Shown here: positions 326 through 44,614 of the stretch, piece after piece
Position numbering within the stretch: the stretch's first letter is position 1
Layout: every line of letters begins with the position of its first letter
Source: a virus
Virus record (IMG/VR): IMGVR_UViG_3300020213_000043
Span: 1-47,255 of that record
Reading direction: 5' to 3' (one strand)
DNA: 47,255 bases
Position numbers and translations under genes: made by a program
The notes under the pieces: generated by a model
What the model was told of the DNA's origin: nothing
The model's database searches: none
Seen by the model: the letters and a program-made list of their open reading frames with translations, nothing else

Positions 326-371
326 GGTTACACGATGTAACCTTTACCACTAAGCCATTTCCCCAATTTTG
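326..371 (+). promoter_or_regulatory. Late promoter copy 1: palindrome plus -7-like box
   Basis: Palindrome GGTTACACGATGTAACC at 326-342, then 21 bp, then CAATTTTG at 364-371, one base off the Bacteroidota -7 consensus TAnnTTTG. The same palindrome, 21-bp gap and box occur at 11705, 35878 and 44569. The palindrome occupies the place of the -33 box. It should drive the tail and fibre genes from 377 onward. Confidence 0.75.
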
Positions 372-376
372 CACCA

Positions 377-2275
377 GTGGCAATAAACGACATGTACCGA
401 TTTTGGATAGACGTGCCCGGACAGGGTATTGTCCAGGCCTACCCATTTAATTCTCAATTGAAATGGATTGATAAAAAAAGGACAGGCTATAGATTTAAAC
501 AGCGCACATTAGAGACTGCTTTAATTCTGAAGGATAAACCAGCTGATAGTATCTTTGACTTCACCAACTTAATGAACTTGGAGCGGTCAGGAATGACCTG
601 CACCCGTGTAAATATAACGGTTGACAAGTACTGTGACTGTGATGCCACGTGGCACGAAGATTTCTACGTTGGATACCTAAGACTTAACGAAGGCGAATGG
701 GACGTGTCTAACTGCACGGTCACTATACCTATTGTTGTTGATGACAAGTTCACATGCCTGACTACCTCATGGACGGATGAGATCAATATGTTTGATTACG
801 GAGACGATACGGTAACCACTAGCCCATTTGTCGGCGTCATTCAGTACGTGGAGTGTGAGACAGAATACAGTAAGACATGGTCACCGCCTGTACAGGCCAG
901 TGTCGTGCGTGCATACTTGCGAATATTCACGAACTCACACCTTCAGACACAGTGTCTATACGACCTAGAGCCAGGATCTGATTCCAACCCGTGGATTTTT
1001 ACAAACAATGCAGCTACCGGGAAGGTGCAGATAAAGCTTGGTGATATTTTCAACCCCGCAAAACTAAAACTAACTTTTACGGTAAAAACAAAATGGGCTA
1101 GAGAGTTCTATGCAGGCGTTACAATACCAGATGGCGATGGGTGGATAGCTGTTACGGGGGGATGGGCTAGGACACCATCAACTTTTACAGGACCATTTTA
1201 TGACGACACAACTGAGGAGGGGCAGCAGGCACTAATTGATTTTACGGGCTCCGATGATTTCAATGTTGGGGTAATGTATACCTTAAAGATTTTCGGAATT
1301 AATGATTTAGGTGAGTATGGTTTTCCAAATGGGAAAGAATTAGGACCTCTACTTGAATCATTACTTGAGCCGTGCGGTTTATCTGTTATATCTAATTTTT
1401 TAAATATAAATCCAGATGCAACGGCTCCTAATAATGTTTATTATCAAAATGCAGCCGTTGATTTTGAAGGTATTGTGCTTTATCAAATCTCAGATGTAGC
1501 GCGGATCGATGAAACGCAGTCTGCTACTATTGCTATCACGCAGGTAAAAAAGATACTGGATGCATTAAAGGTGGCTGGCAACCTTGATATAGATATAGAT
1601 GGCGACACGGTGCGCATTGAGCACCTAAGCTATTGGGCTGATACCGTGCAGATGGATCTCACGCTTTCAGATTTCATTTACCTATTAAACGATAAATGGA
1701 AATACACATACGATCAGGACGCACAGCCTAAGACAGAAATTATAGCGTGGGGGTCAGAGACGGACGGAAAGGGGAAAGACTTTGACGGCTATCCAATCAC
1801 CTATGATAACTCATGTGTAAATGATAAGGAAAATAAAAGTGAAAAGGTGTATATGGCAAGTAATTTTCTTTCCAATATTTTAAAAATAATTGGTAATGAG
1901 GATTACTATGATGACACAGAGACCATAGTAATGATGTCAACCAATGGCACATTTGTAATTAACTCAGCAGTTCAGCCTATATCCGGGACTTCGAAGTTAA
2001 ATGGGAATCTCGCAATGGGTTACCTCATTCCTAGATATTACAGATATGGCAGACCATTTAAAGAGGGGTTTATAAATAATTTATTGTTATTGATGTACAG
2101 ATCATTGAGGCTAAAGCTACAGGCACCTATAACTATCCCGATGGACTGCAATGATTATTTGAATAATTACGATCCGTCCGGATTAATCAAGACACAACTA
2201 GGGGCTGGTGAAATTGAATCAGCCACATATATTGACCCTGATCAGACTCTTGAAATAAAACTAAGGCATAAATAA
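377..2275 (+). CDS. Large tail protein (distal tail/baseplate type)
   Basis: A 632-residue protein, the first gene after the late promoter at 326-371. No catalytic motif or signal peptide is seen; the composition is that of a beta-rich virion protein with many Thr, Asp, Trp and Tyr. Its place, just before an Ig-domain tail protein and the fibre genes, suggests a distal-tail, hub or baseplate role; this is inference. The reading frame opens at GTG 377, only six bases past the -7 box, so a transcript starting there would be almost leaderless. ATG 392 (residue 6) is an alternative start with an A-rich leader. The stop overlaps the next start (TAATGG). Confidence 0.6.
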   Translation: MAINDMYRFWIDVPGQGIVQAYPFNSQLKWIDKKRTGYRFKQRTLETALILKDKPADSIFDFTNLMNLERSGMTCTRVNITVDKYCDCDATWHEDFYVGYLRLNEGEWDVSNCTVTIPIVVDDKFTCLTTSWTDEINMFDYGDDTVTTSPFVGVIQYVECETEYSKTWSPPVQASVVRAYLRIFTNSHLQTQCLYDLEPGSDSNPWIFTNNAATGKVQIKLGDIFNPAKLKLTFTVKTKWAREFYAGVTIPDGDGWIAVTGGWARTPSTFTGPFYDDTTEEGQQALIDFTGSDDFNVGVMYTLKIFGINDLGEYGFPNGKELGPLLESLLEPCGLSVISNFLNINPDATAPNNVYYQNAAVDFEGIVLYQISDVARIDETQSATIAITQVKKILDALKVAGNLDIDIDGDTVRIEHLSYWADTVQMDLTLSDFIYLLNDKWKYTYDQDAQPKTEIIAWGSETDGKGKDFDGYPITYDNSCVNDKENKSEKVYMASNFLSNILKIIGNEDYYDDTETIVMMSTNGTFVINSAVQPISGTSKLNGNLAMGYLIPRYYRYGRPFKEGFINNLLLLMYRSLRLKLQAPITIPMDCNDYLNNYDPSGLIKTQLGAGEIESATYIDPDQTLEIKLRHK

Positions 2276-7118: not shown

Positions 7119-7124
7119 CCATAT

Positions 7125-8629: not shown

Positions 8630-8661
8630 TAGTAATTAATTAACCTTTAAATATTTTAAAC

Positions 8662-11141: not shown

Positions 11142-11666
11142 ATGGGCATAGAGAAAATTATTGATTTCATTTTCCAGTTTCTTAACGACTTCCTCCCATT
11201 CTTTATCGTTAAGGATTGGGAGAAGTCGGTAGTTCTTAGATTTGGAAAAGTAAACAGGGTGAGGGCTTCGGGTGCGCATTGGAAAATACCATTTGCGGAG
11301 GAGCCAATTACCTACTCAGTAGTAACCACTACCATGGAGACACCAGTACAGACACTTGTGACACAAGACGGCCAAGACGTGACCGCAAAAGCTGTTGTTA
11401 AATATAGCCTTAGCGATGTGGTCGCGCATACAATACAGATATATGATGCAACTGATGCCATCGTGGATATAACTCAGGGGCACATAATGAACGAGATCAA
11501 TACCCACTCATACGATGAGTGCCGTGACACGCTAAGTTTATCCAACACCATTACCAAAAGAGTAAGGAATGAGGTGAAGCGGTACGGTGTGTATATTGAG
11601 CAGATTACCCTCACCAACTTCATCAAGACTACCAACTTTAGACTTTTCCAAGATTCTACAGAGTAG
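11142..11666 (+). CDS. SPFH/band-7 domain protein (stomatin/HflK-like)
   Basis: 174 residues. A hydrophobic N-terminus (IIDFIFQFLNDFLPFFIV) is followed by an SPFH core: VVLRFGKVNRVRASGAHWKIPF, then the pairing of METPVQTLVTQDGQDVTAKAVVKYSL, and the helical part up to VRNEVKRYGVYIEQITLTNF. This is the stomatin/prohibitin/HflK order, but the chain stops soon after the core and lacks the long C-terminal coiled coil. Family members form membrane microdomains and restrain the FtsH protease in bacteria. A phage copy could act on host proteases or the membrane; this is inference. Confidence 0.8.
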   Translation: MGIEKIIDFIFQFLNDFLPFFIVKDWEKSVVLRFGKVNRVRASGAHWKIPFAEEPITYSVVTTTMETPVQTLVTQDGQDVTAKAVVKYSLSDVVAHTIQIYDATDAIVDITQGHIMNEINTHSYDECRDTLSLSNTITKRVRNEVKRYGVYIEQITLTNFIKTTNFRLFQDSTE

Positions 11667-11704: not shown

Positions 11705-11750
11705 GGTTACACTATGTAACCGTTGCATTATTCAAACTGGCTGATTTTTG
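11705..11750 (+). promoter_or_regulatory. Late promoter copy 2: palindrome plus -7-like box
   Basis: Perfect palindrome arms GGTTACA/TGTAACC around CTA at 11705-11721, then 21 bp, then GATTTTTG at 11743-11750. It drives 11794-14793 (tube/scaffold/capsid). Unlike copies 3 and 4, the start codon lies 44 bp downstream of the box, so this transcript has a leader. Confidence 0.75.
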
Positions 11751-11793: not shown

Positions 11794-12471
11794 ATGATAG
11801 ATCCTTTTGAATCATACGTTGGCCCCAGTGGCTTTCCTAGTGCAGACTGTACACCACCTGTTTTTCCTGACCCGGTATTCTCCGATTGCCCTGATGCGTA
11901 TATAGCGCATGAGGGAGAGATTGACGAGATATATATCACTAATGTGGTATTCGATACGGGGACAAGTAAGTGGAAAGGCGTTGTGCTGCCAGTAAGTCAT
12001 ACGGTATCGGCAAACTTTATTGTAACAGGCATCGAGCGACTGGTGGGATTTGGGGATAAGCCTCTGGCAGAGGTGCTGACTGTGCCGCTTCCGAAGAATC
12101 AGATTAAGAATGTCGAAAGAAAGCACACGCTTAACTTCGATTTCACAGATCAGCCGATTGCTAATTACACACTCATAAGAGCATTGCAGGGATCGCAGCG
12201 TCTCTGTTTTTGGTATAAAACAATTGATGGTGATGTCTTCGGCGGAGCATCCGGCATAATTGCACGGGTGATCAATGCAGGTAATGTTCATTCTCGTGGT
12301 GAGAACGCGCTGCTTACGGGCACCATCATACTTGGCTGGGACAACATGTTTGATCCTCCACGTGACATACTTGATCCACCAGCTCCATTAATGGTAGGTG
12401 TGCAACCGCCTGAGCCATTGAGAGCTAAGGAGACAATACAAACAAAACAAGTGGCTGGTGCCACGGTATAA
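11794..12471 (+). CDS. Virion protein, possible major tail tube protein
   Basis: 225 residues, first gene of the operon that also carries scaffold and capsid, so probably made in large amounts. The mid-region (NYTLIRALQGSQRLCFWYKTIDG, then SGIIARVINAGNVHSRGENALLTGTIILGW) has the beta-strand pattern and conserved Gly/Trp end seen in tail tube proteins. A Pro-rich tail follows (DPPRDILDPPAPL). A head protein is the main alternative. A 44-bp leader with an A-rich start region separates it from the promoter. Confidence 0.45.
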   Translation: MIDPFESYVGPSGFPSADCTPPVFPDPVFSDCPDAYIAHEGEIDEIYITNVVFDTGTSKWKGVVLPVSHTVSANFIVTGIERLVGFGDKPLAEVLTVPLPKNQIKNVERKHTLNFDFTDQPIANYTLIRALQGSQRLCFWYKTIDGDVFGGASGIIARVINAGNVHSRGENALLTGTIILGWDNMFDPPRDILDPPAPLMVGVQPPEPLRAKETIQTKQVAGATV

Positions 12472-13728: not shown

Positions 13729-14793
13729 ATGGCAGCAGGAACTTTTACAGCATCGGTTTTGCCCGATGTTCTTATCAAAATTAATGAAATGTTCAGCGGT
13801 GAGCGTCATACTCCCGAGCTGAATAAAGACATCCAGACAATTCAGGCACTGGCCGAAAGGCAGACAGCACGATTTGACAAGTTGGATGTTCTTCTTGATC
13901 ACATGGATTGTAGAGGGGCAAAGGTTGTTTTCTTAAAAGACTGCACGAATACTGCAATCAATTTGATTACTGACCCTATCACCTCATGCACATTGACAGG
14001 TGCTGAGACAGAATCTGAGTCATTAACACTGGCCAACAACCTTGGATATGCTGATTCCTTTTCTGTCAAAGAAGAGGACTGTAAAGATCTGTTTACCATT
14101 GCTGACAAGATCGCTTTTCTCATGGCTTCCAAAATGGCAGCTATTGAAGAGAAATTGAATCTTGCCTGCATTGCTTTTCTGATAGCCAATGAGCAGCCAG
14201 TAGCTGACCCATTGACCTACACAGAGACAGGCAACATCGTCAACATCCCGACAGATGCATGGACACCAGCATTGCTGGCAGAGATGGCCGTGATGGCTAA
14301 GCTGTCTAATCTGTACAGCCCATTCATCATATCAGGATCAAACCTGTATGTGGCGAATTTCCTTGCAGATTATCGCAGCCAAAGTTCTCCATCGGTTGAT
14401 GCTGTTTTGAAATCAGGTCCTTTCGATATCATTTTCGATATCAAGAACATTGATACCACCGTAGGAGCGAATGCAACATTTATGGTTGATCCTTCATCTT
14501 ACGCTTTCTGGTCTACTAATCAATTCCAGAACACAGCACCGCAAGAGTTCAGCAAAGGATCAACGCTGTATGTATGGAAGCAACGCGCACCTCGATTAGT
14601 TTACAATAACAACGGTGTTCTCACGCCTGTTTTCTTTGATATGTCTACACAGGAGACCTGTGCAGTGGTCAGTGGAACAAGGTATGTGAACCGGGTTTTT
14701 GAAATTGTATTCCGCGGAGGTCTGCAACTTGGACCACAGGTTTGTAGCGCGACGGATACCGGTATTCTCCAGTTCAATGAATTGGCAGAGTAA
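13729..14793 (+). CDS. Major capsid protein (probable)
   Basis: 354 residues. The call rests on context: directly after the scaffold, last gene before a strong terminator, under the late promoter at 11705. The protein begins MAAGTFTASVLPDVLIKINEMFSG, has a helical middle (about 120-160) and a beta-rich second half ending in FEIVFRGGLQLGPQVC, in keeping with the layout of HK97-fold capsid proteins. It contains six or more Cys, which is fairly high for a capsid protein. Confidence 0.75.
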   Translation: MAAGTFTASVLPDVLIKINEMFSGERHTPELNKDIQTIQALAERQTARFDKLDVLLDHMDCRGAKVVFLKDCTNTAINLITDPITSCTLTGAETESESLTLANNLGYADSFSVKEEDCKDLFTIADKIAFLMASKMAAIEEKLNLACIAFLIANEQPVADPLTYTETGNIVNIPTDAWTPALLAEMAVMAKLSNLYSPFIISGSNLYVANFLADYRSQSSPSVDAVLKSGPFDIIFDIKNIDTTVGANATFMVDPSSYAFWSTNQFQNTAPQEFSKGSTLYVWKQRAPRLVYNNNGVLTPVFFDMSTQETCAVVSGTRYVNRVFEIVFRGGLQLGPQVCSATDTGILQFNELAE

Positions 14794-14884: not shown

Positions 14885-15274
14885 ATGATTCAGGAATTAA
14901 TTAACCGGCTGTTACTTGGCAATACCAAGTTGTCCGGCATAAGGACCATCCTTGTAAACACCATCGTGCTGATACTGGCAGTCTGGGAATTTGCCTCGAA
15001 AGATGGTGGCATATTCTCCATGCTGTGCGAGAGCTTCCAGATACTTTGCGATATTAGCACATCTCAATTCTATGTTGGTGTATTGGTTGTGATATCAGCG
15101 TTGAACAACGTGCTAAGATGGGTAACAGTAGCACCTGTTGGATTGACCGCATCACCAGCGCAGATGAACGCAGGATTTTTTAGGGCACCAACATGGGCGC
15201 AGGTAGCCATTAGCTATATAGCCATACTATCATTGTGCGTAATTGTTGTTGTAATAATTAACGCATTTGCATAA
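14885..15274 (+). CDS. Membrane protein, holin candidate next to the lysin
   Basis: 129 residues with three hydrophobic segments (about 22-37, 60-78 and 106-128). It ends at the base where the lysin gene begins (shared base 15274). A small membrane protein translationally coupled to a lysin is the usual place of a holin, which makes the membrane hole that releases the lysin. No family motif is recognised. Confidence 0.6.
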   Translation: MIQELINRLLLGNTKLSGIRTILVNTIVLILAVWEFASKDGGIFSMLCESFQILCDISTSQFYVGVLVVISALNNVLRWVTVAPVGLTASPAQMNAGFFRAPTWAQVAISYIAILSLCVIVVVIINAFA

Positions 15275-16440
15275 TGCCAGAGCTTCGCCGTATAGTGGGA
15301 TGCACAGAGACACATAACGCATTCAGCGATGAAGCGGCAGCATATAAGATGCTCAATTGGCTGAAGATAAAACCTGATGCCAACGGCGTGATCTATTGGC
15401 ATGTGGCTAACCTAACAGCTAAGATGGACAAGTACAAGGTGCTGTTTGCCTTTCAGACTTGTTTTATTAAATGGCAAGCGGCTTTTGATTTGATAGATCC
15501 GGTTGGCAGGGTCATTGAATTAAAATCAACAGATGACTGGCATCAGGCTCAGATCCGTTTATATTTCTTGGAGCCGGGAGCAACAAGCCAATCGGTAACT
15601 ATATCGGACGGATCGGCAAAGGTTATCAGTAATGCATTTCCGTTTGACGGGGCAATGGGTGTGCTGGCTCATAGATTGCACAACTCATTTGACCTGTACT
15701 TCGATGAAGGGGAGCAATGGAGCGACATTCATAAGTTTGAAAAAGTAGGTAATGATTATGTTCTGTACGTGCAATTATGGCAGGTCGCTATGCACGAGCT
15801 TGGGCATATGTTCGACATAGGCCACGCATCGGACAAGACTGCAATAATGTATCCAACCTATGACGGTGAACACATTGATATTGTGGCCGATGATCTGGCT
15901 GCATTATCAGAAGCTTTTTCAAAAACAAAGCAAGAAATAAAAAAGACCATGGTAGCAACAACGCCTCCGACAACATTAACAGACCCACGGGTCACCCATT
16001 TACAGGGGACTTTGCCCGTAGGCCCAAAGGCATATGGCAAACGATCACTGGTATCGATCAAGCAGATAGTGGTACACCACTCTGCCGATAATGGCACACC
16101 TGAATCAATCGCACGGTACCACGTGAACGGCAATAAGTGGCCCGGCATTGGTTACCATTTCATAATTGACAACACAGGTAAGATTTTCCAGACAAACGAC
16201 ATGGACACAGTTAGCTACAATGTGGCTAATCAAAATACAAAGACATTAGGGATATGCCTGATCGGTAACTTTGATATCCAGCAGCCTGTAGAGGCGCAGA
16301 TCGAGAGCCTTAAATGGCTGATCGGTGCCGTCCGTGGAGTAGTTGGGCAGCTGCCTATTTTTGGCCATAGAGATAAAGGGCAGACAGCGTGCCCAGGAAA
16401 TAATCTGTACAAAATTTTAAAATCTATCGATGTCAGTTAG
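15274..16440 (+). CDS. Lysin: matrixin metalloprotease fused to an Amidase_2 domain
   Basis: 388 residues, two catalytic domains. Residues about 20-215 form a matrixin-like (M10) protease: AFPFDGAMGVLAH, then LYFDEGEQW, the zinc motif HELGHMFDIGH (His174, Glu175, His178, His184) and the Met-turn IMYP (Met192). Residues about 260-388 form an Amidase_2/PGRP domain: IVVHHSADN (His268), GIGYHFII, GICLIGNFD, FGHRD (His365) and CPG (Cys373), the three zinc ligands of T7-lysozyme-like N-acetylmuramoyl-L-alanine amidases. A Thr/Pro linker joins them. The amidase should cut peptidoglycan; the protease target is unknown. It overlaps the next gene by 11 bp. Confidence 0.85.
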   Translation: MPELRRIVGCTETHNAFSDEAAAYKMLNWLKIKPDANGVIYWHVANLTAKMDKYKVLFAFQTCFIKWQAAFDLIDPVGRVIELKSTDDWHQAQIRLYFLEPGATSQSVTISDGSAKVISNAFPFDGAMGVLAHRLHNSFDLYFDEGEQWSDIHKFEKVGNDYVLYVQLWQVAMHELGHMFDIGHASDKTAIMYPTYDGEHIDIVADDLAALSEAFSKTKQEIKKTMVATTPPTTLTDPRVTHLQGTLPVGPKAYGKRSLVSIKQIVVHHSADNGTPESIARYHVNGNKWPGIGYHFIIDNTGKIFQTNDMDTVSYNVANQNTKTLGICLIGNFDIQQPVEAQIESLKWLIGAVRGVVGQLPIFGHRDKGQTACPGNNLYKILKSIDVS

Positions 16441-18206: not shown

Positions 18207-18214
18207 TATATTTG
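18207..18214 (+). promoter_or_regulatory. Early promoter -7 box
   Basis: TATATTTG fits the TAnnTTTG consensus and lies 22 bp upstream of the first early gene. No convincing -33 TTTG is seen. There is no late palindrome, as expected for a promoter read by unmodified host polymerase. It faces the minus-strand promoter at 18107. Confidence 0.6.
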
Positions 18215-18236: not shown

Positions 18237-18431
18237 ATGAACAACAAGGACTTGGCAAAAATAGAGGGGTCATTGCCACGCGGTGGCAAGTGGAGGCTTT
18301 CCCAGATATTGGGATGTGACCCGTCTAAGATTACAAAAGCTTTTGCAGGCATGGTAAGAGATCCGGTTTTTTTGGGAAAGCTAAAACAGGCAGCTTTGAA
18401 AATAGCGGACGAATATAAGCCTTTGGTATAA
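18237..18431 (+). CDS. Small DNA-binding-like protein, first early gene
   Basis: 64 residues from ATG 18237, which has the A-rich start context common to the early genes; a longer frame from 18171 would start upstream of the promoter. GSLPRGGKWRLSQILGCDPSKITKAFAGMVRDP reads as a short helix-turn-helix (QILG-x-x-x-SKITKAFAG), followed by LKQAALKIADEY. Similar small proteins in Bacteroidota phages act as regulators. As the first early gene it could control the divergent promoters at 18100 and 18207. Confidence 0.55.
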   Translation: MNNKDLAKIEGSLPRGGKWRLSQILGCDPSKITKAFAGMVRDPVFLGKLKQAALKIADEYKPLV

Positions 18432-18465: not shown

Positions 18466-18879
18466 ATGGAAGACATTTTTGAAAAATTAGCACACACGCT
18501 GAAGCCCATTGAGACCACCTACAAGAAAGTCACTGGGCAGATAAAGGACCGGGTGGTAGGTCTTAGCTTCGAAACAACGATTGACAAGATCATAGTGATC
18601 CTTGAAATATCCGGCTACCAGACAGGCGGGGTGATTACATCAACTGATGTGATCATCATTGAACACAATGATTTTCAGGAGTGGCTGCAGGAGAATGAAA
18701 AGATGCAAATCGACTTGGGCGAATTTGAGGACCCGACTACCTTCTACCTATCCTATGCTGAGTACATGATGGAGCATGTCGACAAAGAGACAATAGCACT
18801 TTATCTGGTGAGTCAAGATCTGGTCAGCGATGGCTACATATGGACAAGCCCGAAGCCCTCCAAAACATCGACTGTATGA
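18466..18879 (+). CDS. Unknown early protein
   Basis: 137 residues, acidic in the second half, no recognised motif. Starts after the AAAATCATG context shared by early genes; its stop overlaps the next start as ATGA. Confidence 0.5.
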   Translation: MEDIFEKLAHTLKPIETTYKKVTGQIKDRVVGLSFETTIDKIIVILEISGYQTGGVITSTDVIIIEHNDFQEWLQENEKMQIDLGEFEDPTTFYLSYAEYMMEHVDKETIALYLVSQDLVSDGYIWTSPKPSKTSTV

Positions 18880-19169
18880 GGCAAGTATACGAGGTGCCAG
18901 CGGAGGACATGGATCTGATAAAGGAAAATAATGTCTTCATATCCGGAATAAAAAAACGCATAGAGGCAGGCCATGATAAGTGGCTGACCGTTGGAGAGGC
19001 AGCCAAGTACATTAAGAAATCACCGGCCCATCTGAGGGGCAGGTTAAAAGACCTCATTGGCTTTCATAAGGACGGAACCAGAGGCAGCAAATCACCACTA
19101 CTATTTTCAATTGATGCACTTGACACCTATATGTCAAGGCACTACCACCCACCAGTGGAGCAAGAATAA
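18876..19169 (+). CDS. Excisionase/MerR-type helix-turn-helix protein
   Basis: 97 residues from ATG 18876, chosen because it makes the ATGA overlap with the previous stop. Residues about 35-90 (KWLTVGEAAKYIKKSPAHLRGRLKDL, then SPLLFSIDALDTYMSRH) match the small winged HTH_17/excisionase fold: LTVGEAA helix, recognition helix, wing, terminal helix. Probably a DNA-binding regulator. Without an integrase in the window a true excisionase role is unlikely. Confidence 0.65.
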   Translation: MRQVYEVPAEDMDLIKENNVFISGIKKRIEAGHDKWLTVGEAAKYIKKSPAHLRGRLKDLIGFHKDGTRGSKSPLLFSIDALDTYMSRHYHPPVEQE

Positions 19170-24604: not shown

Positions 24605-24895
24605 ATGTCCAACACAATTAAACGCCAATCTGTAAGTAAGTACCCGAAATGCTTTTTAATGTCAACAGATGAAGATGGTGAGGCAGTCCATTTCGACATC
24701 CTTTTTGCCGCTATTTTCTACGGAACAGATGCTGTTACCGCTGTTGCTGAGACACGCATAGATATCAGTGTTGGTAAACTACTAGAGAAAGCATTTGAAG
24801 AAATAGATAGGTCGGACGTGCTGATCCACTCACTGGAAGATAAGATAGAAGTGGTGAACAGATTAAGAAAGAAATGTAATCGGTGGATAAGATGA
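24605..24895 (+). CDS. Unknown protein upstream of the methyltransferase
   Basis: 96 residues without recognised motifs; a helical C-terminus (KLLEKAFEEIDRSDVLIHSLEDKIEVVNRLRKK). Its stop overlaps the methyltransferase start as ATGA. Confidence 0.5.
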   Translation: MSNTIKRQSVSKYPKCFLMSTDEDGEAVHFDILFAAIFYGTDAVTAVAETRIDISVGKLLEKAFEEIDRSDVLIHSLEDKIEVVNRLRKKCNRWIR

Positions 24896-25845
24896 ATCAC
24901 GGTTCACTATTTTCTGGAATTGGAGGTTTCGATATCGCTGCTGAATGGATGGGATGGGAAAACATCTTTCATTGTGAGTGGAATAAGTTCGGACAAAGTG
25001 TATTAAAATATTACTGGCCAAAAGCTATAAGTTATGACGATATCACAAAAACAGACTTCACTATTCACAGAGGACAAGTCGACATCCTCACAGGTGGATT
25101 CCCTTGTCAACCCTATTCGGTTGCTGGAAAACGAAAGGGCAAAGAGGATGAGAGACATCTCTGGCCGGAAATGCTTAGATGTATTAGAGAGTGCCGGCCG
25201 ACCTGGATCGTGGGGGAAAACGTTTCTGGCCTTATTAGTTGGAACGGGGGATTGGTATTCGAGGAGGTGTGCGCTGACTTGGAAAGTGAAGGGTACGAAG
25301 TCCAACCGGTTATACTTCCAGCTTGCGCCGTCAACGCTCCCCACCGAAGAGATCGGGTCTGGATTGTTGCCCACCGTTCAAACGCAAGGATTGAAGGTTT
25401 GCACGAACAGAAGATCGGTTCAGATCAATTACTCGCTCCTACCAACGCCGCAAGCACGGGACGAAAAGAATGGGAGCAACGAAGCCGGAACACGGATACA
25501 ACGGAAAATAAAACAAGGCTGGACGATAGACCTAAACGATCAGGCAGCGATGGGAATGCTACCAACGCCGAGAACAAGGGACTACAAGGGTGCAAGGACA
25601 ACGGAATCACTAAAGGAATCAGGAAGAACAGAAACAAACAGCTTGCCGGATGCATTCCACCAAACTGGGAAATGTTCCCAACTCAATCCCCAGTTCGTTC
25701 TAGAAATGATGGGGTTTCCTCCGAATTGGACGGAATTACCTTTCCAAAGTGGCGCAACGAATCAATCAAAGCAGGAGGAAACGCAATAGTGCCCCATCTC
25801 GCTTTTGAGATATTTAAAGTAATAGAAAAAATGCAAAACAAATAA
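24892..25845 (+). CDS. DNA (cytosine-5)-methyltransferase
   Basis: 317 residues from ATG 24892 (ATGA overlap; ATG 24883 would add three). Motif I LFSGIGGFD, motif IV GGFPCQPYSVAGKRKG with catalytic Cys72, motif VI GENVSG (Glu109), motif VIII NAPHRRDRVWIVAH, and motif X GNAIVPHLAFEIF are all present. The region between VIII and X, normally target recognition, is low in complexity (Asn/Lys/Arg/Asp-rich), and exactly there a second gene (25034-25789) is encoded in the +1 frame. Likely role: protecting phage DNA from host restriction. Confidence 0.93.
   Translation: MNHGSLFSGIGGFDIAAEWMGWENIFHCEWNKFGQSVLKYYWPKAISYDDITKTDFTIHRGQVDILTGGFPCQPYSVAGKRKGKEDERHLWPEMLRCIRECRPTWIVGENVSGLISWNGGLVFEEVCADLESEGYEVQPVILPACAVNAPHRRDRVWIVAHRSNARIEGLHEQKIGSDQLLAPTNAASTGRKEWEQRSRNTDTTENKTRLDDRPKRSGSDGNATNAENKGLQGCKDNGITKGIRKNRNKQLAGCIPPNWEMFPTQSPVRSRNDGVSSELDGITFPKWRNESIKAGGNAIVPHLAFEIFKVIEKMQNK
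25034..25789 (+). CDS. Gene nested in the methyltransferase, +1 frame (LLPTP-repeat family)
   Basis: 251 residues read entirely within the methyltransferase gene. The product looks like a real conserved protein: RDISGRKCLDVL, then GTGDWYSRRCALTWKVKGTKSNRLYFQLAPST, three repeats beginning LLPT/MLPT (LLPTVQTQGLKV, LLPTPQARDEKNG, MLPTPRTRDYKG) and the ending LNPQFVLEMMGFPPNWTELPF. I recall proteins of this kind beside or over phage cytosine methyltransferases in Bacteroidota. Function unknown; a link to the methyltransferase is inferred from the overlap. The start at ATG 25034 is the first possible, but the true start may differ. Confidence 0.7.
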   Translation: MTISQKQTSLFTEDKSTSSQVDSLVNPIRLLENERAKRMRDISGRKCLDVLESAGRPGSWGKTFLALLVGTGDWYSRRCALTWKVKGTKSNRLYFQLAPSTLPTEEIGSGLLPTVQTQGLKVCTNRRSVQINYSLLPTPQARDEKNGSNEAGTRIQRKIKQGWTIDLNDQAAMGMLPTPRTRDYKGARTTESLKESGRTETNSLPDAFHQTGKCSQLNPQFVLEMMGFPPNWTELPFQSGATNQSKQEETQ

Positions 25846-25851: not shown

Positions 25852-28527
25852 ATGTCCTCCCTATACGCATCAGCAAAAGATTACCTGGCAGCCGGCCTAT
25901 CTGTTATCCCCTGTTCCAACAAGAGACCGGTGATAGGATCATGGTCACAATACCAGCAGGCAGCCCCTACCCTATCTGACATTGAAAATATGTTCAGGTC
26001 CCCAAAAGCGGACCAGATAGCTGTGATATGCGGAGCCGTCTCCGGATCTCTTGAGGTGATAGATGTGGACTTAAAGAATGACACCACCGGCACACTGTGG
26101 GACTTGCTGTGGAATGACCTCCTTGAATATTTTAATAACTCAATGCCGTTGGTCGTGGTAACCACTAAGTCAGGCGGTGTGCATCTGTACTACAGGTGCG
26201 AAGTAATTGAAGGAAATCAGAAGCTGGCCAGCGTAAAAAACAAAGAAGGCAAAGCAGTAGTAATTATTGAAACAAGGGGCGAAGGAGGCTATGTCATCGC
26301 ACCACCATCAGCTGGATACACATTACCTGATAGCGCATCTTTAGCGGCAATAGCCACCATCACAACTGATCAGCGCACAGACATATTAGACATATGCCGG
26401 AAATATAACCAGGTATTTGTAACCGAAAGGCAGAAGGTATCTAATGTGCAGGCGAGCAATTACAAGCTCACTCCGTGGGACGCATACAACCAGGACACAT
26501 CAGAACCATGGATGGAGGTAATGACAGATGCCGGATGGGTGGAGACAGGTGATAAAGATGGTAGGACATATCTTTCGAAAGCGGGCTCCGACAATAAAAA
26601 CAAAGCCAATTGGAACCACGAAAAACGCCTCCTTTATATTTTCTCTACCTCCACAGAATTTGAAAGCGAAAAAGCATACACCCCATTTGCCATTTACGCG
26701 GTGCTGAAGTGCGCCGGTGACTTTGCAGAAGCCACCAGGCAGATACGCGCTGCAGGCTACGGTCAGCCATTCTCTGAAAAAGAAGAGGAGTTAATACACC
26801 ATGCCACCACACTTTCGGACAAACAGATAGATCCTTTTGATATTTTTAGAATTTTAACCCCTGAATACTTTACGGCTTACCCAGACATCAAAGACTTACC
26901 AAAGGAGGAGCGAGAAAAAAAAACGAATGAGGCACTAGCGCCAATAATACGGGCAGGGGCAGAGAGGGCAGCGCAAGCCAAGGGGCTTTTCTGGGTAAAA
27001 AGGGGGAAAGGATTAGCGATAGTTGGGAGTGAAATAGTTAAATTCCTGCAGGCACAGGGTTTCTGGCTATTCGTGCAGGAAAGCGCATCCATGGCCTACC
27101 GATTAGTACACATAGACACCGACAGCCATATCATCGAAGAGGTGCCGGTTGACAAACTTAAGAAGTGGGTGGGTAAATGGGTGACTGATAACATAGATGA
27201 TTATAAGGTCAGCGGCCATGAGCTAATGGTGGCACTCGTTGATTTCACCGGATGGGAGCGAATAATTGAATGGCTAGAAAGGGTGTCCATAGCTGACATA
27301 TCATTTTTGAGGGATACATCAACAGCATCGTATCTGCCTTTTAAAAACGGGATAGTACATATTACCAAGGACGATATCCGGATAATGGAGTACCAAGAGC
27401 TGCCAAAAAATATGCTGCTTTGGACAAACCAAATCAAGGACGATGATATAGAGTTAGTAGGTATCGAAAAGGAACTTGACCTAAACCAAACACCGGTTTA
27501 CCGATTCTTCAAAAGGATAGCAGGAATTAACCCAGACATCGAGAACCTACCCATTGAAGGACCGGACGGACTGATGGTTAATTATCCGGACAAGTACAAT
27601 AACCTAATGTCGTTCTTGACCGGAGCCGGCTATCTGCTCTCTAATTACAAGGATCCAGGCAGGCCATATGCATATGTGTTGGCTGAAGACACCGCAACAT
27701 CGAGGGAAGGAGGCGGAGCCGGTAAGGACTTGTTTATCAAATGCCTGATTCCTCTTAGGTCCGTATGTCTATTTCCTGCCAAGCTCTGGAAGGCAACGGA
27801 TAGTTTTGCATTCCAAAGGTATAAATTGGGTGATGATATCCTTTACTTGTCAGATCTGAACCGCAACTTTGATTTCGAGCTAATTTATAATGTGGTCAGC
27901 GAAGGATTGCCGATAGAGAAGAAGAACAAAGATGCCTTCATGGTGCCCTATGAGCTATCGCCTAAGGTAGTAGCATCAACTAACTACGATGTAGATGAGA
28001 CGAACGCACACGCGGCAAGGAGGCTCCGTAAGCTACTGTTTGCCAAATACTACAACCAGGTAGTTAGGCCAGAGGATGAGCTAGGAGGTATGTTCTGGGG
28101 TCCGGAATGGACACGCCGGGACTGGATGCTGTTCTACTTGCTGCTATTTGTATGCATCCAAACATATCTGGACAATGGGGTGATGAGGTTTGCAACAACC
28201 GAAAATATGAAGGCAAAGACCATAAAGCTAAAGTGTGGTGAAGACTTTTATGATTTCATTTCCGAATGGATTACCGCTAATGCCGGCAAGTGGGTGCCCA
28301 AAAAAGGACTGTATGATGAGTTCCTCGATGATTCTGAGCTGGAGCGAAAGGCTTACTCGAGCCGTAAGTTTGACTTTGCCATGAAATTCTACGCTGAGGT
28401 GAATGGGTACGTGGTTGGTGAGGTTAGAAATAAATCTCGTAATGTTGGGGATAGAGATCAGAAATACATTATATTTACCAAGGCAGGGCTAGTAGTGCCT
28501 GATTTCGCAGAAGGCACACCATTTTAG
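25852..28527 (+). CDS. Primase-polymerase fused to a superfamily 3-type helicase
   Basis: 891 residues. N-terminal prim-pol: GLSVIPCSNKRPVIGSW, VICGAVSGSLEVIDVD (Asp pair near 70), VVTTKSGGVHLYYR (near 100-115) and VIIETRGEGGYVIAPPS. The C-terminal ATPase (about 560-800) has REGGGAGKDLF as a divergent Walker A (Asp replaces the usual Ser/Thr), DILYLSDLNRNF as Walker B, KVVASTNYDVD as sensor/motif C and ARRLRKLLF as Arg finger. It should unwind and prime phage DNA. The noncoding putative origin follows directly, and a terminator lies at 28604. Confidence 0.85.
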   Translation: MSSLYASAKDYLAAGLSVIPCSNKRPVIGSWSQYQQAAPTLSDIENMFRSPKADQIAVICGAVSGSLEVIDVDLKNDTTGTLWDLLWNDLLEYFNNSMPLVVVTTKSGGVHLYYRCEVIEGNQKLASVKNKEGKAVVIIETRGEGGYVIAPPSAGYTLPDSASLAAIATITTDQRTDILDICRKYNQVFVTERQKVSNVQASNYKLTPWDAYNQDTSEPWMEVMTDAGWVETGDKDGRTYLSKAGSDNKNKANWNHEKRLLYIFSTSTEFESEKAYTPFAIYAVLKCAGDFAEATRQIRAAGYGQPFSEKEEELIHHATTLSDKQIDPFDIFRILTPEYFTAYPDIKDLPKEEREKKTNEALAPIIRAGAERAAQAKGLFWVKRGKGLAIVGSEIVKFLQAQGFWLFVQESASMAYRLVHIDTDSHIIEEVPVDKLKKWVGKWVTDNIDDYKVSGHELMVALVDFTGWERIIEWLERVSIADISFLRDTSTASYLPFKNGIVHITKDDIRIMEYQELPKNMLLWTNQIKDDDIELVGIEKELDLNQTPVYRFFKRIAGINPDIENLPIEGPDGLMVNYPDKYNNLMSFLTGAGYLLSNYKDPGRPYAYVLAEDTATSREGGGAGKDLFIKCLIPLRSVCLFPAKLWKATDSFAFQRYKLGDDILYLSDLNRNFDFELIYNVVSEGLPIEKKNKDAFMVPYELSPKVVASTNYDVDETNAHAARRLRKLLFAKYYNQVVRPEDELGGMFWGPEWTRRDWMLFYLLLFVCIQTYLDNGVMRFATTENMKAKTIKLKCGEDFYDFISEWITANAGKWVPKKGLYDEFLDDSELERKAYSSRKFDFAMKFYAEVNGYVVGEVRNKSRNVGDRDQKYIIFTKAGLVVPDFAEGTPF

Positions 28528-30719: not shown

Positions 30720-31088
30720 ATGCACTGGATACAAGTACAAAAACCACGATATAAAATAGATGGGTATATCTGGGTCTCCTGTGTGGCAGAAATAAGAAAA
30801 AATGATACGGGCGAAATAAGAGAATATAAAACTGATGAGCTTCTAAGGAATGGTGATATCACCCCATCTGTCTTTAAATGGGAGGATAATAACTATTCCT
30901 GTGACTGCAATAGGCGGTTGTGCTTTGATCGCGCATCAGATACGGATGAAGATACGGATGAAGATACCGATGTTGTATGTTCGCACGGTAAGTACTCCGT
31001 CAACCTGAAAAACAAAAAAGACGGCAAGGTCTATTATCGCGAATTTGGGGCGCAACCAAAGGCACCCACCACAACAAATAAATCATGA
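30720..31088 (+). CDS. Unknown Cys-containing protein with an acidic repeat
   Basis: 122 residues. SCDCNRRLCFDRAS then an acidic DTDEDTDEDTD stretch made by 12-bp DNA repeats, then VVCSHGKYSVNLKNKKDGKVYYREFG. Four Cys and a His could bind zinc. The end overlaps the next start (31085) and contains leader B copy 2. Confidence 0.5.
   Translation: MHWIQVQKPRYKIDGYIWVSCVAEIRKNDTGEIREYKTDELLRNGDITPSVFKWEDNNYSCDCNRRLCFDRASDTDEDTDEDTDVVCSHGKYSVNLKNKKDGKVYYREFGAQPKAPTTTNKS
31054..31085 (+). repeat. Shared leader B, copy 2
   Basis: AACCAAAGGCACCCACCACA then ACAAATAAATCA. It lies inside the end of the upstream gene, where it encodes PKAPTTTNKS, and directly before ATG 31085. Confidence 0.8.
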
Positions 31089-35876: not shown

Positions 35877-35877
35877 C

Positions 35878-35923
35878 GGTTACACTATGTAACCCCTCTA
35901 TTTTGTCCCCTCCCCTAATTTTG
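35878..35923 (+). promoter_or_regulatory. Late promoter copy 3: palindrome plus -7 box
   Basis: GGTTACACTATGTAACC at 35878-35894, 21 bp, then TAATTTTG at 35916-35923, a perfect TAnnTTTG. The tape-measure ATG is 6 bases further on (35929), which predicts a leaderless or near-leaderless mRNA. Confidence 0.8.
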
Positions 35924-35928
35924 GGGAT

Positions 35929-38412
35929 ATGGCAGACATAAGAGAAAAGATAACCTTCGATGATAGCGCCGTCATTAAGGGTCTTCAGAACCAGTACGAC
36001 TTAATCACCTCCGTTGATAAGGCTCTACGCAGCACAGAAGTGTCTTACAAGGAGGCTTTTGATATTGCCAGCAAGCAGCTGGAAAAATCAAACAAAGCCA
36101 CAACTGATGCTACCGGAAAGATAACCAGCCATATAATTGAAACAAATAAAGCCAAACATGCAACTGGTGGATGGGGCGATGCGTTACATGGAGTTGCTGA
36201 CGAAATCAATATAATGGGCACAAACCTAGGAGGGGTTGTATCTAATTTGAAATCAAAGGCGGCTGCTTTAAAAAATGTAACCAGCGCAATAGGTGGGACA
36301 GTAAGAGGGATGGGCGTGCTAAAGATCGCCATTGCAGCAACAGGGATAGGGTTGCTGGTTGTTGCCCTTGCCGCCGTTGTTTCCTTCATGGGAAAATCCG
36401 CAACGGCTGCTGACAAATTCGGAGCTACAATGAAGGGGGTAAGTGCAGGAGCCTCATTTCTTGGGACCAGACTTGCCAACGCCACGGACGCGTTGCTTAA
36501 ATTTATATCTCTCGACTTTAAGGGGGCCGCTGAGTCTTGGGCGGCAGCTACTAATAACTTTGCAGATGCGCTCAAGGAAACAGGCAGATGGACTAGGCAA
36601 CTGGCATTAGAGCGGATGGAGCTAGACAGGCTGGCCAGTGAGGAGACGGTGACCAATGCAAAGATAAAGGGGCAGGTAGCCGGGCTGCTTTTACAGGCTG
36701 CAGACAGAAATACAGCACTATCCACCAGAATAGGCCTACTTGAGCAGGTTAAGACGCTGGAGGTTGATTCAGCCGAAAGGGATTTCAGACTGAATCAAAA
36801 ATTATTTCTTAACGAAAATCTAAGACTAGCCCTGATCGAGAAAGAGAGAGAGCTAACCTCCGAAGAGATAAGAAATTTAAACGCGCTTAAGGTTGCGGCA
36901 ATAAATGCTGGCAATGCAAGGCAGGAGGTAGCCATCACGACCACCTCTAGAATTTCAGGACTAATTAAGCAGGAGAATGCGCTAAGCAGTGCAGCACACC
37001 AAGCAGAGCTTGCCAGGATTAAGGCGTTAAACGAAGCCCTGCAATCGCAGATAGAGAAGATAACAGAGGCTGCCGACAAAATAGCCAATGAGGCACTGGA
37101 TCCTGAGAGTAGGCTAAGGGCAGAGGCCAACCTTGCAACGCTGATTATAGAAGAGCAATTCAGAATCCTTGACCAAAGAGCAAAGGCAGCCGGTAAAGAG
37201 GTAGACCTGTCACAGGACAGGGCATACCTTTTGCTTGCCATTGAAAAACATCTGGCTCGTGATATCGAAAATGTAAGGGGTGAAAGCATTGCAAAGCTTG
37301 GAGAATCGGTCATCAAACCGCTGCAGGTCACAGAAAGGAAGGCTGTTGACATAGTTGGCAATGTACAGGATGCACTAATCAGGATGGGCGATAGCCCGGA
37401 GGTTAAGGGGTCGATGCTCACGCTGAACGAGAATCTTCAAAAAGCCTTTGGGCTAAACGAGGACGAGCTTGCATCTATAGGCAACAGCATATCATCCATA
37501 TATGCATCAATGCAGCAGGGCACAGCGGATGCGATTGAAAAGAATAATGAACTTCTCGATTCTCTTCAGCAAACAAGGGAGCAGGCCGATGATGATCTAG
37601 AAAAAGAAATCGAACGCCGGGAGGCTGGGCTTGCAAATAATGTAGTGGGGAAGAAAAAGGAGATTGAGGAGATCAAAAAACAGGAGGCCATAGCACAAAA
37701 AGAAGCGGAGAAGTTAAGGAAAAAAGCAATTGCACAGCAGCTTATAGCAGATGCCGTTGCTCAGGCATCTAACTTGGCAACCATGATATCTAATGTGGTT
37801 GCATCTCCGGGTGTCTCACTCCTTGGTCCTGCTGGTATACCTATTGCCATTGCCACCATTGCCGCCTTTATTGGTATCTTGGCAAAGGTCAAAACATCCC
37901 AAAAGAAACTATCAGGCGGTGGATCACTTGACCAGGATGGCGTTACCGGCTTTGTAAATCTTGGAGGGCGCACCGATAAATCAGGGGGCAGAGGTCACCG
38001 GGTTGAGGATAGTAACGTAGTTCTGGGAGGTCGTGAGTTCATCGTTGGCGAAGGACCAGCCAATGAGCATAGGGAACTACTTGAGAGTATCAACTCCGGG
38101 CGGTTCACTGGAAAGGAAGGACTAAAAGAAGGAGGCCAGAGAGGGCTTCACTTCGCACTTGGCTACAACGGAGAGCATGACCATGATAGTGCCATCATAA
38201 TGGCAGCGAGTGCCAGGAACAAGGAGCGAATGATAGTTGAGGGGATTGACAGAGCATTTGAGAAGCACGCTAACCGGATGATAGCGGCCATTGAAGAGAA
38301 GCCGGACACCACAGCCTACGAGCCCGGGATGATATTAAGGGAGCGGACAAAATCGGGGGTAAAAATTACGGAGACGGTGAAGGATTGGAGATGGAAGCCG
38401 GAGAGGAACTAA
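35929..38412 (+). CDS. Tail tape measure protein
   Basis: 827 residues. Long helical, Ala/Glu/Lys-rich coiled coil with hydrophobic segments near 129-154 (GVLKIAIAATGIGLLVVALAAVVSFMG) and about 610-655, the classical tape-measure layout. If about 1.5 angstrom per residue applies, the tail would be near 120 nm long. A His- and Gly-rich C-terminal part (GGRGHRVEDSNVVLGGREFIVGEGPANEHRELLESI) follows. The stop is 1 bp from the stop of the opposing frameshifted chaperone gene (38414). Its own late promoter is at 35878. Confidence 0.85.
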   Translation: MADIREKITFDDSAVIKGLQNQYDLITSVDKALRSTEVSYKEAFDIASKQLEKSNKATTDATGKITSHIIETNKAKHATGGWGDALHGVADEINIMGTNLGGVVSNLKSKAAALKNVTSAIGGTVRGMGVLKIAIAATGIGLLVVALAAVVSFMGKSATAADKFGATMKGVSAGASFLGTRLANATDALLKFISLDFKGAAESWAAATNNFADALKETGRWTRQLALERMELDRLASEETVTNAKIKGQVAGLLLQAADRNTALSTRIGLLEQVKTLEVDSAERDFRLNQKLFLNENLRLALIEKERELTSEEIRNLNALKVAAINAGNARQEVAITTTSRISGLIKQENALSSAAHQAELARIKALNEALQSQIEKITEAADKIANEALDPESRLRAEANLATLIIEEQFRILDQRAKAAGKEVDLSQDRAYLLLAIEKHLARDIENVRGESIAKLGESVIKPLQVTERKAVDIVGNVQDALIRMGDSPEVKGSMLTLNENLQKAFGLNEDELASIGNSISSIYASMQQGTADAIEKNNELLDSLQQTREQADDDLEKEIERREAGLANNVVGKKKEIEEIKKQEAIAQKEAEKLRKKAIAQQLIADAVAQASNLATMISNVVASPGVSLLGPAGIPIAIATIAAFIGILAKVKTSQKKLSGGGSLDQDGVTGFVNLGGRTDKSGGRGHRVEDSNVVLGGREFIVGEGPANEHRELLESINSGRFTGKEGLKEGGQRGLHFALGYNGEHDHDSAIIMAASARNKERMIVEGIDRAFEKHANRMIAAIEEKPDTTAYEPGMILRERTKSGVKITETVKDWRWKPERN

Positions 38413-38413
38413 C

Positions 38414-41293: not shown

Positions 41294-41310
41294 TATAGTG
41301 GTAAAGTTAT

Positions 41311-41318
41311 TACATTTG
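41311..41318 (+). promoter_or_regulatory. -7 box for the terminase operon
   Basis: TACATTTG, a perfect TAnnTTTG, 36 bp before ATG 41354. GTTAT/ATAAC arms (41306-41310 and 41320-41324) flank it. Confidence 0.55.
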
Positions 41319-41341
41319 CATAACAATTTTGTTTAATACAT

Positions 41342-41349
41342 CAAATGTA
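41342..41349 (-). promoter_or_regulatory. -7 box for the minus-strand tail block
   Basis: TACATTTG on the minus strand, about 49 bp before ATG 41293. It overlaps the inverted repeat TACAT-CAA-ATGTA (41337-41349). It has no late palindrome. Confidence 0.55.
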
Positions 41350-41353
41350 ATAG

Positions 41354-41680
41354 ATGAAAGAAGCTCTCCATGAACAAGCCGGTATCAAAACTATCTATGC
41401 ATCTAATTTTCTACACGCTGCATTGTGGGCGTTTGTTAGCGGACAACGGCAAGCCGGAAAAGATATTAATGAATCAATAAGATGCTTTATGAAATTCATG
41501 GACTGTGAAGACGTTGAGTTTAATTCGCTAAAACAGACTTACTATCGGAAAAATTCTGAATATGTGCAGTCAGCCACGGCGATGAAGGCAGACACAAAAC
41601 AGGTCTTTGATTGCCAGCCGGATGAAATTGACAGGGTATTTTCTCAGATGAAAAATGCAATAAGCAAAAATATAAAATGA
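41354..41680 (+). CDS. Unknown protein, first gene of the terminase operon
   Basis: 108 residues, mainly helical (HAALWAFVSGQRQAGKDINESIRCFMKFM), no family recognised. ATGA overlap with the methyltransferase fusion. A regulator or packaging accessory is possible by position only. Confidence 0.5.
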   Translation: MKEALHEQAGIKTIYASNFLHAALWAFVSGQRQAGKDINESIRCFMKFMDCEDVEFNSLKQTYYRKNSEYVQSATAMKADTKQVFDCQPDEIDRVFSQMKNAISKNIK

Positions 41681-42840
41681 GCGAAACCATACCGATATCA
41701 AGCCTAAAGAATAATCCTAGCAATCCACGGATAATCAGGGATGAGAAGTTTGAGAAGTTGAAAAAATCAATTCAGGACTTTCCTAAAATGCTGGAGTTAA
41801 GACCTATGGTCTACGATCCGGCTACGATGCAGGTGCTTGGCGGTAATATGCGATTGAAAGCATTAAAGGAGCTGGGTCATAAAAATATACCGTTGATATG
41901 GCTAAAGCCATCCACCGGATTAACGGATGATGAGAAGAAAGAGTTTATCATTAAGGACAACTTAGGTTTTGGAGAATGGGACTGGCAGGAACTGGCCGCC
42001 AATTGGGACGAATCAAAGCTGGAGGATTGGGGACTTGAATGCCAATGGCCAGAGGAGATTATAGCCGATGCAGTTGAGGATGATTACGAGATACCTGAAG
42101 AAATATTTACAGATATAGTTCTTGGTGACCTTTTCGAGATTGGAGATCATAGGCTGTTGTGTGGCGATAGTACTTGTTCTGATACAGTTTCAAAGTTAAT
42201 GAATGGACAGAAAGCGGATATGGTGTTTACAGACCCGCCTTATGGGATGAACTTAGATACTGATTATTCTAAAATGCCTTCAACAAAAAAAGAAGGTAAT
42301 AAAAATTATAGTAAGGTTATTGGCGATAACAAAGATTTTACACATGAATTAATAAGTACAATATTCGCCTTGTTTGATGATGTTAAAGAGATTTTTATTT
42401 TTGGAGCTGATTACTTTTCAGAATTATTGCCAAACAAAAATACAGGCAGTTGGATAGTTTGGGATAAAAGAGTAGATGAGAATTTTGACAAAATGATAGG
42501 GTCTGCTTTTGAATTATGTTGGAGTAAATCAAAGCACCAAAGAAAAATAGCAAGATTTAACAATACCTTGTTTAGTGGTGAGGCAGATGCAAAAAATAAA
42601 TTTCACCCAACACAAAAACCATTAAAATTAGTTGAGTTTTTTTTAAAGAATTGGGGGGAAGAAAATGATTTAATCGTTGATATTTATCTTGGCTCAGGGT
42701 CTACAATGGTAGCATCACACCAATTGAAGCGAAAATGTTACGGCATGGAACTTGACCCTAAATACTGTCAAGTAATTATAGACAGAATGCGAAAGCTAGA
42801 TCCAGATATTAAGATACTAAGAAATGGAAAAGAACTTTAA
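41677..42840 (+). CDS. ParB-domain / DNA N-methyltransferase fusion
   Basis: 387 residues. Residues 1-100 are a ParB/Srx-type domain (SLKNNPSNPRI, VLGGNMRLKALKELG). Residues about 145-387 are an N6-adenine or N4-cytosine methyltransferase of the beta order: FTDPPYG (186-189) first, HPTQKP (310-315), then DIYLGSGSTMVA (about 335-346) binding AdoMet. The DNA coding for the methylase half after DPPY is visibly more AT-rich than the ParB half, suggesting a domain swap. Such fusions sit near terminase genes in many phages and protect DNA or mark it. The end overlaps the next gene by 17 bp. Confidence 0.9.
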   Translation: MSETIPISSLKNNPSNPRIIRDEKFEKLKKSIQDFPKMLELRPMVYDPATMQVLGGNMRLKALKELGHKNIPLIWLKPSTGLTDDEKKEFIIKDNLGFGEWDWQELAANWDESKLEDWGLECQWPEEIIADAVEDDYEIPEEIFTDIVLGDLFEIGDHRLLCGDSTCSDTVSKLMNGQKADMVFTDPPYGMNLDTDYSKMPSTKKEGNKNYSKVIGDNKDFTHELISTIFALFDDVKEIFIFGADYFSELLPNKNTGSWIVWDKRVDENFDKMIGSAFELCWSKSKHQRKIARFNNTLFSGEADAKNKFHPTQKPLKLVEFFLKNWGEENDLIVDIYLGSGSTMVASHQLKRKCYGMELDPKYCQVIIDRMRKLDPDIKILRNGKEL

Positions 42841-43204: not shown

Positions 43205-43209
43205 CATTT

Positions 43210-44565
43210 ATGGACATTGAATTTCGTTGCATGGGAAACGAAAAACAATTCCAGGCATCTCAATACTGGATTGATGATACCACGGAGCAGATCCTTTATG
43301 GTGGTGCAAAGGCCGGGGGTAAATCATTTCTTGGATGCTCATTAATTTTTGGAGATGCTTTAATATATCCTAATACTCATTATTTTATTGCAAGAAAAGA
43401 ATTAGCAGACCTCCGAAAGTTTACCGTACCATCTGTAATTGAGGTTCTTTCCGGATGGGGTATACAAAAGTCAGGGTATAAATACAACGGGCAGGATAAC
43501 TATTTTGAACTCAGCAATGGCAGTAAGGTCTTTTTAATATCCTGCACATACTTACCATCTGATCCATTATTTGAAAGGTTCGGATCTATGCAGATGACAA
43601 GGGGCTGGATCGAAGAGGCAGGGGAGGTCAGTGAGGATGCAAAGAGAAACCTATGGATATCAATAGGGCGGTGGAAAAACCTTGAATACGGCCTTAAGAA
43701 AAAAATACTGATAACCTGCAATCCAAAGAAAGGTTTTTTGTACCGCGAATTTTATAAGCCGTTTACACTTGGCACTATCCCTGAATCAAAAAAATTTATT
43801 GCTGCATTAGTTTACGACAACAAAACAGCACCACTTGATTATATTCAATCGCTTGAGGACCTGCAAGGCGTTTCAAGGCAAAGGCTATTGCACGGTAATT
43901 GGGAATATGATGATAGCGATGATTCGCTAATTGATTATGATTGCATCCTCGATTCTCTTAATAACACCCATGTAAAACAAACTGGCAAAAGATATATTAC
44001 AGCTGATATAGCATTACAGGGTTCGGATAATTTTGTTATTCTGGTTTGGGATGGCTTCGTTTGCATCCATTCGGAAAAGATACCAAAGATCGGTCCAAGG
44101 GAACTGGTGGACAAAATAGGTGTTTTAAAAAGACGATTTAATGTACCAAATTCACACATAGCCTATGATGCTGACGGTGTTGGTGCTTATGTTGGTGGGT
44201 GGGTCGAAGGGGCAAAGGCATTTCACAATGGAGGATCACCAAAGAAGGTGTCTAACGAAAAGGAAGATTATGCGAATCTAAAATCACAGTGTTATTTTAA
44301 AATGGCAAAGCGTGACAATGAGCATGGTTACCATATGCAGGCACTTCCTGAATCAGACAGAGAGGCGTACATTGAGGAGATGGAGCAGGTAAAAAGAGGA
44401 GGCAAGGACCCTGACGGCAAATTAAGAATTATTAGCAAAAAAGAAGTAAAGGCAAACATTGGCAGGTCTCCTGATATAACAGATGCGAAGATGATGAGGG
44501 AACTTTTTGAGCTAACACCCCCAAGGATGGCCATGTCCGGCATAAACATCGAGGATCTAAATTGA
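43210..44565 (+). CDS. terL: Terminase large subunit
   Basis: 451 residues. Walker A YGGAKAGGKS (30-39), RKELADLRK, Walker B/catalytic GWIEEAGEV (Glu135, Glu136), coupling motif ITCNP (about 168-172). Nuclease domain: ITADIALQGSDN (Asp266), AYDADGVGAYVGG (Asp320, Asp322) and a last Asp in SPDITDAKMM near 420. This is the packaging motor and end-cutting nuclease. The late promoter for portal begins 4 bp after its stop. Confidence 0.95.
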   Translation: MDIEFRCMGNEKQFQASQYWIDDTTEQILYGGAKAGGKSFLGCSLIFGDALIYPNTHYFIARKELADLRKFTVPSVIEVLSGWGIQKSGYKYNGQDNYFELSNGSKVFLISCTYLPSDPLFERFGSMQMTRGWIEEAGEVSEDAKRNLWISIGRWKNLEYGLKKKILITCNPKKGFLYREFYKPFTLGTIPESKKFIAALVYDNKTAPLDYIQSLEDLQGVSRQRLLHGNWEYDDSDDSLIDYDCILDSLNNTHVKQTGKRYITADIALQGSDNFVILVWDGFVCIHSEKIPKIGPRELVDKIGVLKRRFNVPNSHIAYDADGVGAYVGGWVEGAKAFHNGGSPKKVSNEKEDYANLKSQCYFKMAKRDNEHGYHMQALPESDREAYIEEMEQVKRGGKDPDGKLRIISKKEVKANIGRSPDITDAKMMRELFELTPPRMAMSGINIEDLN

Positions 44566-44568
44566 TAT

Positions 44569-44614
44569 GGTTACACTATGTAACCTTTAGCCCCCAGCTA
44601 TTCCATCATTTTTG
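44569..44614 (+). promoter_or_regulatory. Late promoter copy 4: palindrome plus -7-like box
   Basis: GGTTACACTATGTAACC at 44569-44585, 21 bp, CATTTTTG at 44607-44614. The portal ATG is 7 bases past the box (44621). Confidence 0.78.

Follow-up and report, generated by a model that had tools for sequence, protein, structure and literature searches.

The late promoters of phage P2 serve four late operons and respond to Ogr, a zinc-finger protein; they lack a -35 element and carry upstream a dyad element, TGT-N12-ACA, centred near -55. Class II CRP promoters have their activator site at about -41.5, with the half-sites TGTGA-N6-TCACA. In phage Mu, the late promoters Plys, PI, PP and Pmom depend on the activator C, which binds next to the -35 region, or across it, in promoters with non-consensus elements (PMC4461284). 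The sigma-A box of Flavobacterium psychrophilum is TAnnTTTG at -12 to -5 (PMC9723704). Little seems to be known about the timing of late genes in phages of Bacteroidota, and a limited search of the open literature returned no described late-activator regulon in these phages.

The window analysed here, the whole stretch of 47,255 bp, represents all or nearly all of a phage genome, as 245 bases are repeated at its two ends with one mismatch; it contains no tRNA. Judging from its sequence, the virus is a phage of Bacteroidota: the named phages with a related TerL are mostly phages of Bacteroidota, and this kinship matches the sigma-A type box TAnnTTTG at -12 to -5 (PMC9723704). A sister phage (G001; IMGVR_UViG_3300020045_006398; 46,931 bp, with a 121-bp terminal repeat) was found via TerL and shares 66% identity with the window in TerL, 70% in the portal and 64% in the protein at 13729, while a third phage, the 4,233-bp fragment L116, was found via portal alignment (portal identity 69%). 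Both are known from environmental DNA only. Single-sequence searches of IMG/VR with the MCP and the portal yielded no relatives, the aligned-portal search yielded the sister and L116 only, and the search of genome contigs for a portal relative was negative.

The 17-bp palindrome GGTTACAC[T/G]ATGTAACC occurs as exact copies only at 326, 11705, 35878 and 44569 of the window. All four copies are intergenic, face rightward on the plus strand and have an ortholog in the sister. The first (P1, GGTTACACGATGTAACC, 326..342) is followed by the box CAATTTTG at 364..371 and a GTG start codon at 377; the second (P2, GGTTACACTATGTAACC, 11705..11721) by GATTTTTG at 11743..11750 and an ATG at 11794, with a predicted leader of about 39 nt; the third (P3, GGTTACACTATGTAACC, 35878..35894) by TAATTTTG at 35916..35923 and the tape measure gene ATG at 35929; and the fourth (P4, GGTTACACTATGTAACC, 44569..44585), which also has an ortholog in L116, by CATTTTTG at 44607..44614 and the portal gene ATG at 44621. 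An earlier sequence-only reading had placed each palindrome 21 bp ahead of a NA[A/T]TTTTG box, and this proved exact at 4/4 sites. The mismatch search that it had proposed disclosed no further copy on either strand of the whole window even with up to three mismatches, matches of this quality averaging 0.17 in shuffled controls, with a maximum of 2. As NA[A/T]TTTTG occurs 42 times on both strands, or at only 4.4e-4 per position, four boxes sharing one distance are not a product of chance. An unbiased scan for inverted-repeat families at a constant distance upstream of all NANNTTTG boxes likewise returned this palindrome as a family of 4 in both the window and the sister; in first-order Markov random genomes a family of 3 arose once in 120 runs and one of 4 never. 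The same scan gave no family above two in six other TerL-related records and detected other inverted-repeat families in more distant phages, the window's own palindrome being absent from these six records and from four named phages.

The sister carries exactly four altered palindromes (TGTTACACATTGTAACA, of the form TGTTAC[A/T]CATTGTAACA, one of them with TGTTACT), and these precede the orthologs of the same four genes, with a gap of 21 bp at 4/4 and the boxes CAATTTTG, CAATTTTG, GAATTTTG and TAATTTTG. In L116, TGTTACATACCGTAACA is followed after 21 bp by CAATTTTG and then by the portal ATG. The 21-bp rule, which was to be checked in related phages, is thus obeyed at all five further sites (four in the sister, one in L116) and at 9/9 sites in three phages, although the phages are related and the sites not fully independent. 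Between the window and the sister, the boxes are identical at 7-8 of 8 positions, the spacers at 7-11 of 21 and the upstream flanks at 5-12 of 30, the last two values being not far from chance. The boxes were kept while the spacers and flanks drifted, and the comparison clearly bears the mark of selection on the palindrome, the box and the distance between them. The outermost base pair of the palindrome is G..C at 4/4 window sites and T..A at 4/4 sister sites, and this change in concert suggests that one factor with shifted specificity serves all four sites. At the 11705 promoter the start codon comes 43 nt past the box, as against about 32 nt for the first ATG at the sister counterpart, both with the 21-bp gap; the palindrome distance is fixed relative to the box, not to the start codon.

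Within the boxes, AnnTTTG is found at 9/9 sites, position 4 is always T, and a T at position 1 is present in 2/9 only. No TTTG stands at the expected -33 distance at the window, sister or L116 sites, and P2 has one GTTG 17 bp upstream of its box. As the first T is missing at 7/9 sites and the -33 TTTG is absent, these promoters should be weak on their own. The proposal that the palindrome replaces the -33 element is unproven, as the early promoter at 18207 (TATATTTG) also has no TTG upstream and a genome-wide -33 motif could not be found in F. johnsoniae (PMC7366714); across this phage's other promoters, the -33 element is poorly defined and not constant.

Start codons lie only 5-6 bases past the box at three of the four window sites, so the mRNAs from P1, P3 and P4 should be almost leaderless. 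In the F. psychrophilum register, with the box occupying -12 to -5, transcription would be expected to begin 1-2 nt ahead of the start codons at 377 (GTG), 35929 and 44621, and 0-2 nt before those of the sister, L116 being predicted to be arranged alike; the 11705 promoter and its sister counterpart would each give a leader a few tens of nucleotides long. In F. psychrophilum leaderless mRNAs account for about 5.5%, and in Bacteroides thetaiotaomicron 5' UTRs shorter than 10 nt account for about 3.7% (PMC9723704, PMC7366714). The short start is not unique to the palindrome class, as the minus-strand gene starting at 18094 begins 4 nt after a box.

Each palindrome had been said to stand before a virion gene block. 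This holds by profile for the gene after the 35878 site (tape measure, phrog_20660, 6.5e-8) and that after the 44569 site (portal, phrog_7376, 8.7e-11), whereas the genes directly after the 326 and 11705 sites gave no useful profile match. The 11705 block also carries a lysis amidase; the product of 15274-16440 is a lysis-type protein with a matrixin-like metallopeptidase domain and an N-acetylmuramoyl-L-alanine amidase (63% identity in the sister). A Band_7/SPFH domain protein is encoded at 11142-11666, at the end of the 377 block. The idea that all virion blocks carry the palindrome was rejected, since it is absent from 41354-terS-terL and from the minus-strand block 41290 to 38689, genes that are presumably also late; the leftward genes are taken as neck/tail genes from reading and position only. 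Part of the virion genes thus fall outside the regulon. The operon from 41354 onward, with the terminase genes, has a promoter of canonical form, TTG-N21-TACATTTG, with its box at 41311. In the divergent promoter region 41300-41354, TATTACATTTG ... CAAATGTAATA form two facing TACATTTG boxes as an inverted repeat, of which the sister keeps the rightward box only. Two DNA methyltransferases are encoded at 41677-42840 (ParB_N plus N6/N4 type) and 24883-25845 (C5 type), the former separating the terminase genes from the 41354 gene and lacking at the same place in the sister.

The four sites probably form a late-promoter regulon whose activator is a single dimeric protein, probably encoded by the phage, with its site at about -42, a reading to which we assign a probability of roughly 0.7. 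With the box at -12 to -5, which assumes the position of the transcription start, the palindrome spans -50 to -34 with its centre at -42, and its half-site centres lie 10 bp apart, about one helical turn. A phage-encoded protein made early would bind the palindrome as a dimer whose two subunits each take one half-site, at the position of a class II activator adjoining RNA polymerase at the NA[A/T]TTTTG box; its contact with the polymerase would compensate for the imperfect -7 box and the missing -33 element, and the 377 and 11794 blocks would be switched on together with the portal and the tape measure. We infer that the boxes act as promoters of late genes and that the factor is an activator encoded by the phage. 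Conservation in two other phages gives good support to the claim of one dimeric regulator that acts on four promoters from a class II-like position at a fixed distance. Counting against it, the asymmetric palindrome centre has a single orientation at 8/8 window and sister sites, a constancy that need not be expected of a dimer with full symmetry.

The same arrangement might be produced by a phage repressor dimer which covers the -33 region and keeps the four promoters off early, late expression then following from loss or titration of the repressor. A site spanning -50 to -34 could stand in the way of polymerase, and related Sphingobacterium phages have a different, operator-like palindrome that overlaps a canonical -33 TTTG, with a spacing to the box of exactly 13 bp. 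Repressors, however, tolerate variable spacing, while the distance here is exactly 21 bp at every site, and cores that look weak fit help rather than blocking. Activation would therefore be preferred over repression from the exact spacing and the weak cores, and the repressor is considered unlikely. Somewhat less probable again is that the phage copied host operators, so that the virion genes respond to a host activator. The isolated pattern GTTACA-N3-TGTAAC is present in 23/395 Bacteroidota genomes, more than the reversed control pattern; nevertheless, the bare palindrome occurs at most twice per genome, the palindrome with the 21-bp gap and box occurs in 0 of the 395 genomes, and the palindrome differs in concert between the sister phages. 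The earlier alternative of a phage or a host activator is thereby narrowed, as absence of the rule from the sampled host genomes suggests a phage-encoded factor and makes a host one unlikely.

Least probable is a palindrome that works as RNA, as a hairpin in read-through mRNA that serves as a processing mark or as the site of a translation regulator. The predicted stem has -4.5 to -7.8 kcal/mol and the sister change is compensatory in the stem too, yet the conserved distance is to the promoter box rather than to the start codon, the innermost pairs are mismatched in some sites (sister P3, L116), no U-run follows, hence no intrinsic terminator, and transcripts starting at the box would exclude the palindrome. 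In searches of all IMG/VR, the strict rule was matched by three sites of the sister and by a single unrelated sequence on two contigs, with the box CAGATTTG; the looser rule returned the four sister sites, L116 and a roughly chance-expected number of matches. The remaining scattered matches, several inside repeated families, are judged coincidental from their sequence context. No paper printing the palindrome as a motif was found with the forms tried.

Four small regulators had been named for binding tests, of which those at 18237, 18876 and 41354 have sister counterparts and that at 31085 has none. The plus-strand gene at 18237..18431 encodes a 64-aa protein with an HTH-like segment and is the first gene after the early-type box at 18207; its predicted structure is helical at low confidence (pLDDT 65), it has no convincing profile match and no significant PDB match, and it gave one marginal match among 296 Bacteroidota genomes. 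The gene at 18876..19169 (plus strand) has a weak HTH_17 match. The 108-aa helical protein of 41354..41680 (plus strand), encoded just upstream of the terminase genes under its own canonical promoter, has a predicted structure with pLDDT 70 and no significant PDB fold match. The pre-terminase gene of Sphingobacterium prophages was considered as a homolog of 41354 and rejected, homology not being detectable. Family or fold support for the three conserved candidates is weak or absent. As a matter of judgement rather than result, 18237 is placed foremost as the candidate activator, though well short of even odds, followed by 41354 and then by 18876, which is ranked level with the prospect of something else.

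Other Bacteroidota phages show other arrangements. In the Sphingobacterium-type phages and prophages L071, L076, L081, L124 and L132, the different palindrome mentioned above, about ACTTAWCCATTTGGWTAAGT, is found twice per phage, each time exactly 13 bp ahead of the -7 box. The TTTG that it contains forms the -33 element at N20, and one box of each pair lies 4-5 nt before the ATG of a gene of about 124 aa just upstream of the terminase genes; this palindrome looks like a putative operator over a canonical promoter. In Cellulophaga phage phi10:1 (L169), a shared element resembling TATAAAT-(N)-ATTTAT adjoins the -7 box without a gap at 25974, 32104, 36041 and 40961, preceding the portal, the protease and two tail genes, and may represent a second late-promoter type in a cultured Bacteroidota phage. 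Several TTTTGCCTAAGCAAAA-like inverted repeats surround candidate -7 boxes at about 1590-1943 in Bacteroides phage Versailles (L170), just after the integrase gene.

An undescribed family of phage late activators, which would work with the unusual Bacteroidota RNA polymerase from a changing palindrome at -42 and feed largely leaderless late transcripts, with 5' ends at the start codon or 1-2 nt ahead of it, into a special route of translation, is a tentative proposal to which we give somewhat less than even odds. The anatomy is directly testable, given the four promoters with their common spacing rule and a sister whose palindrome is shifted, and the promoter together with its activator, if found, would give a simple inducible expression tool for Bacteroidota.

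Compared with the sigma-A promoters of Bacteroidota (TAnnTTTG with a -33 TTTG), the downstream box here corresponds to the -7 element or a variant of it, but its first T is usually missing, its fourth position is always T, and upstream there is a palindrome and no -33 element. A palindrome near -42 and a fixed helical phase are shared with class II CRP promoters, where the site centre lies near -41.5 (here -42, with 21 bp at 9/9 sites and the start position assumed), whereas the half-site and its spacing are unlike those of CRP. The likeness to P2 and Ogr lies in four units, an upstream dyad and no -35 element; the Ogr element itself is not matched, as the sites here have GTTACA-N3-TGTAAC at -42. 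Neither an Ogr/Delta zinc-finger protein nor, against PHROGs and Pfam, a Mor/C-family protein was matched among the scanned proteins, which covered the small ORFs in part. Mu, too, has four late promoters, one dimeric phage activator and host RNA polymerase, but it uses enterobacterial sigma-70 -10/-35 elements in an architecture that varies among the four promoters, whereas the sites described here combine a box of the Bacteroidota -7 type with constant spacing.
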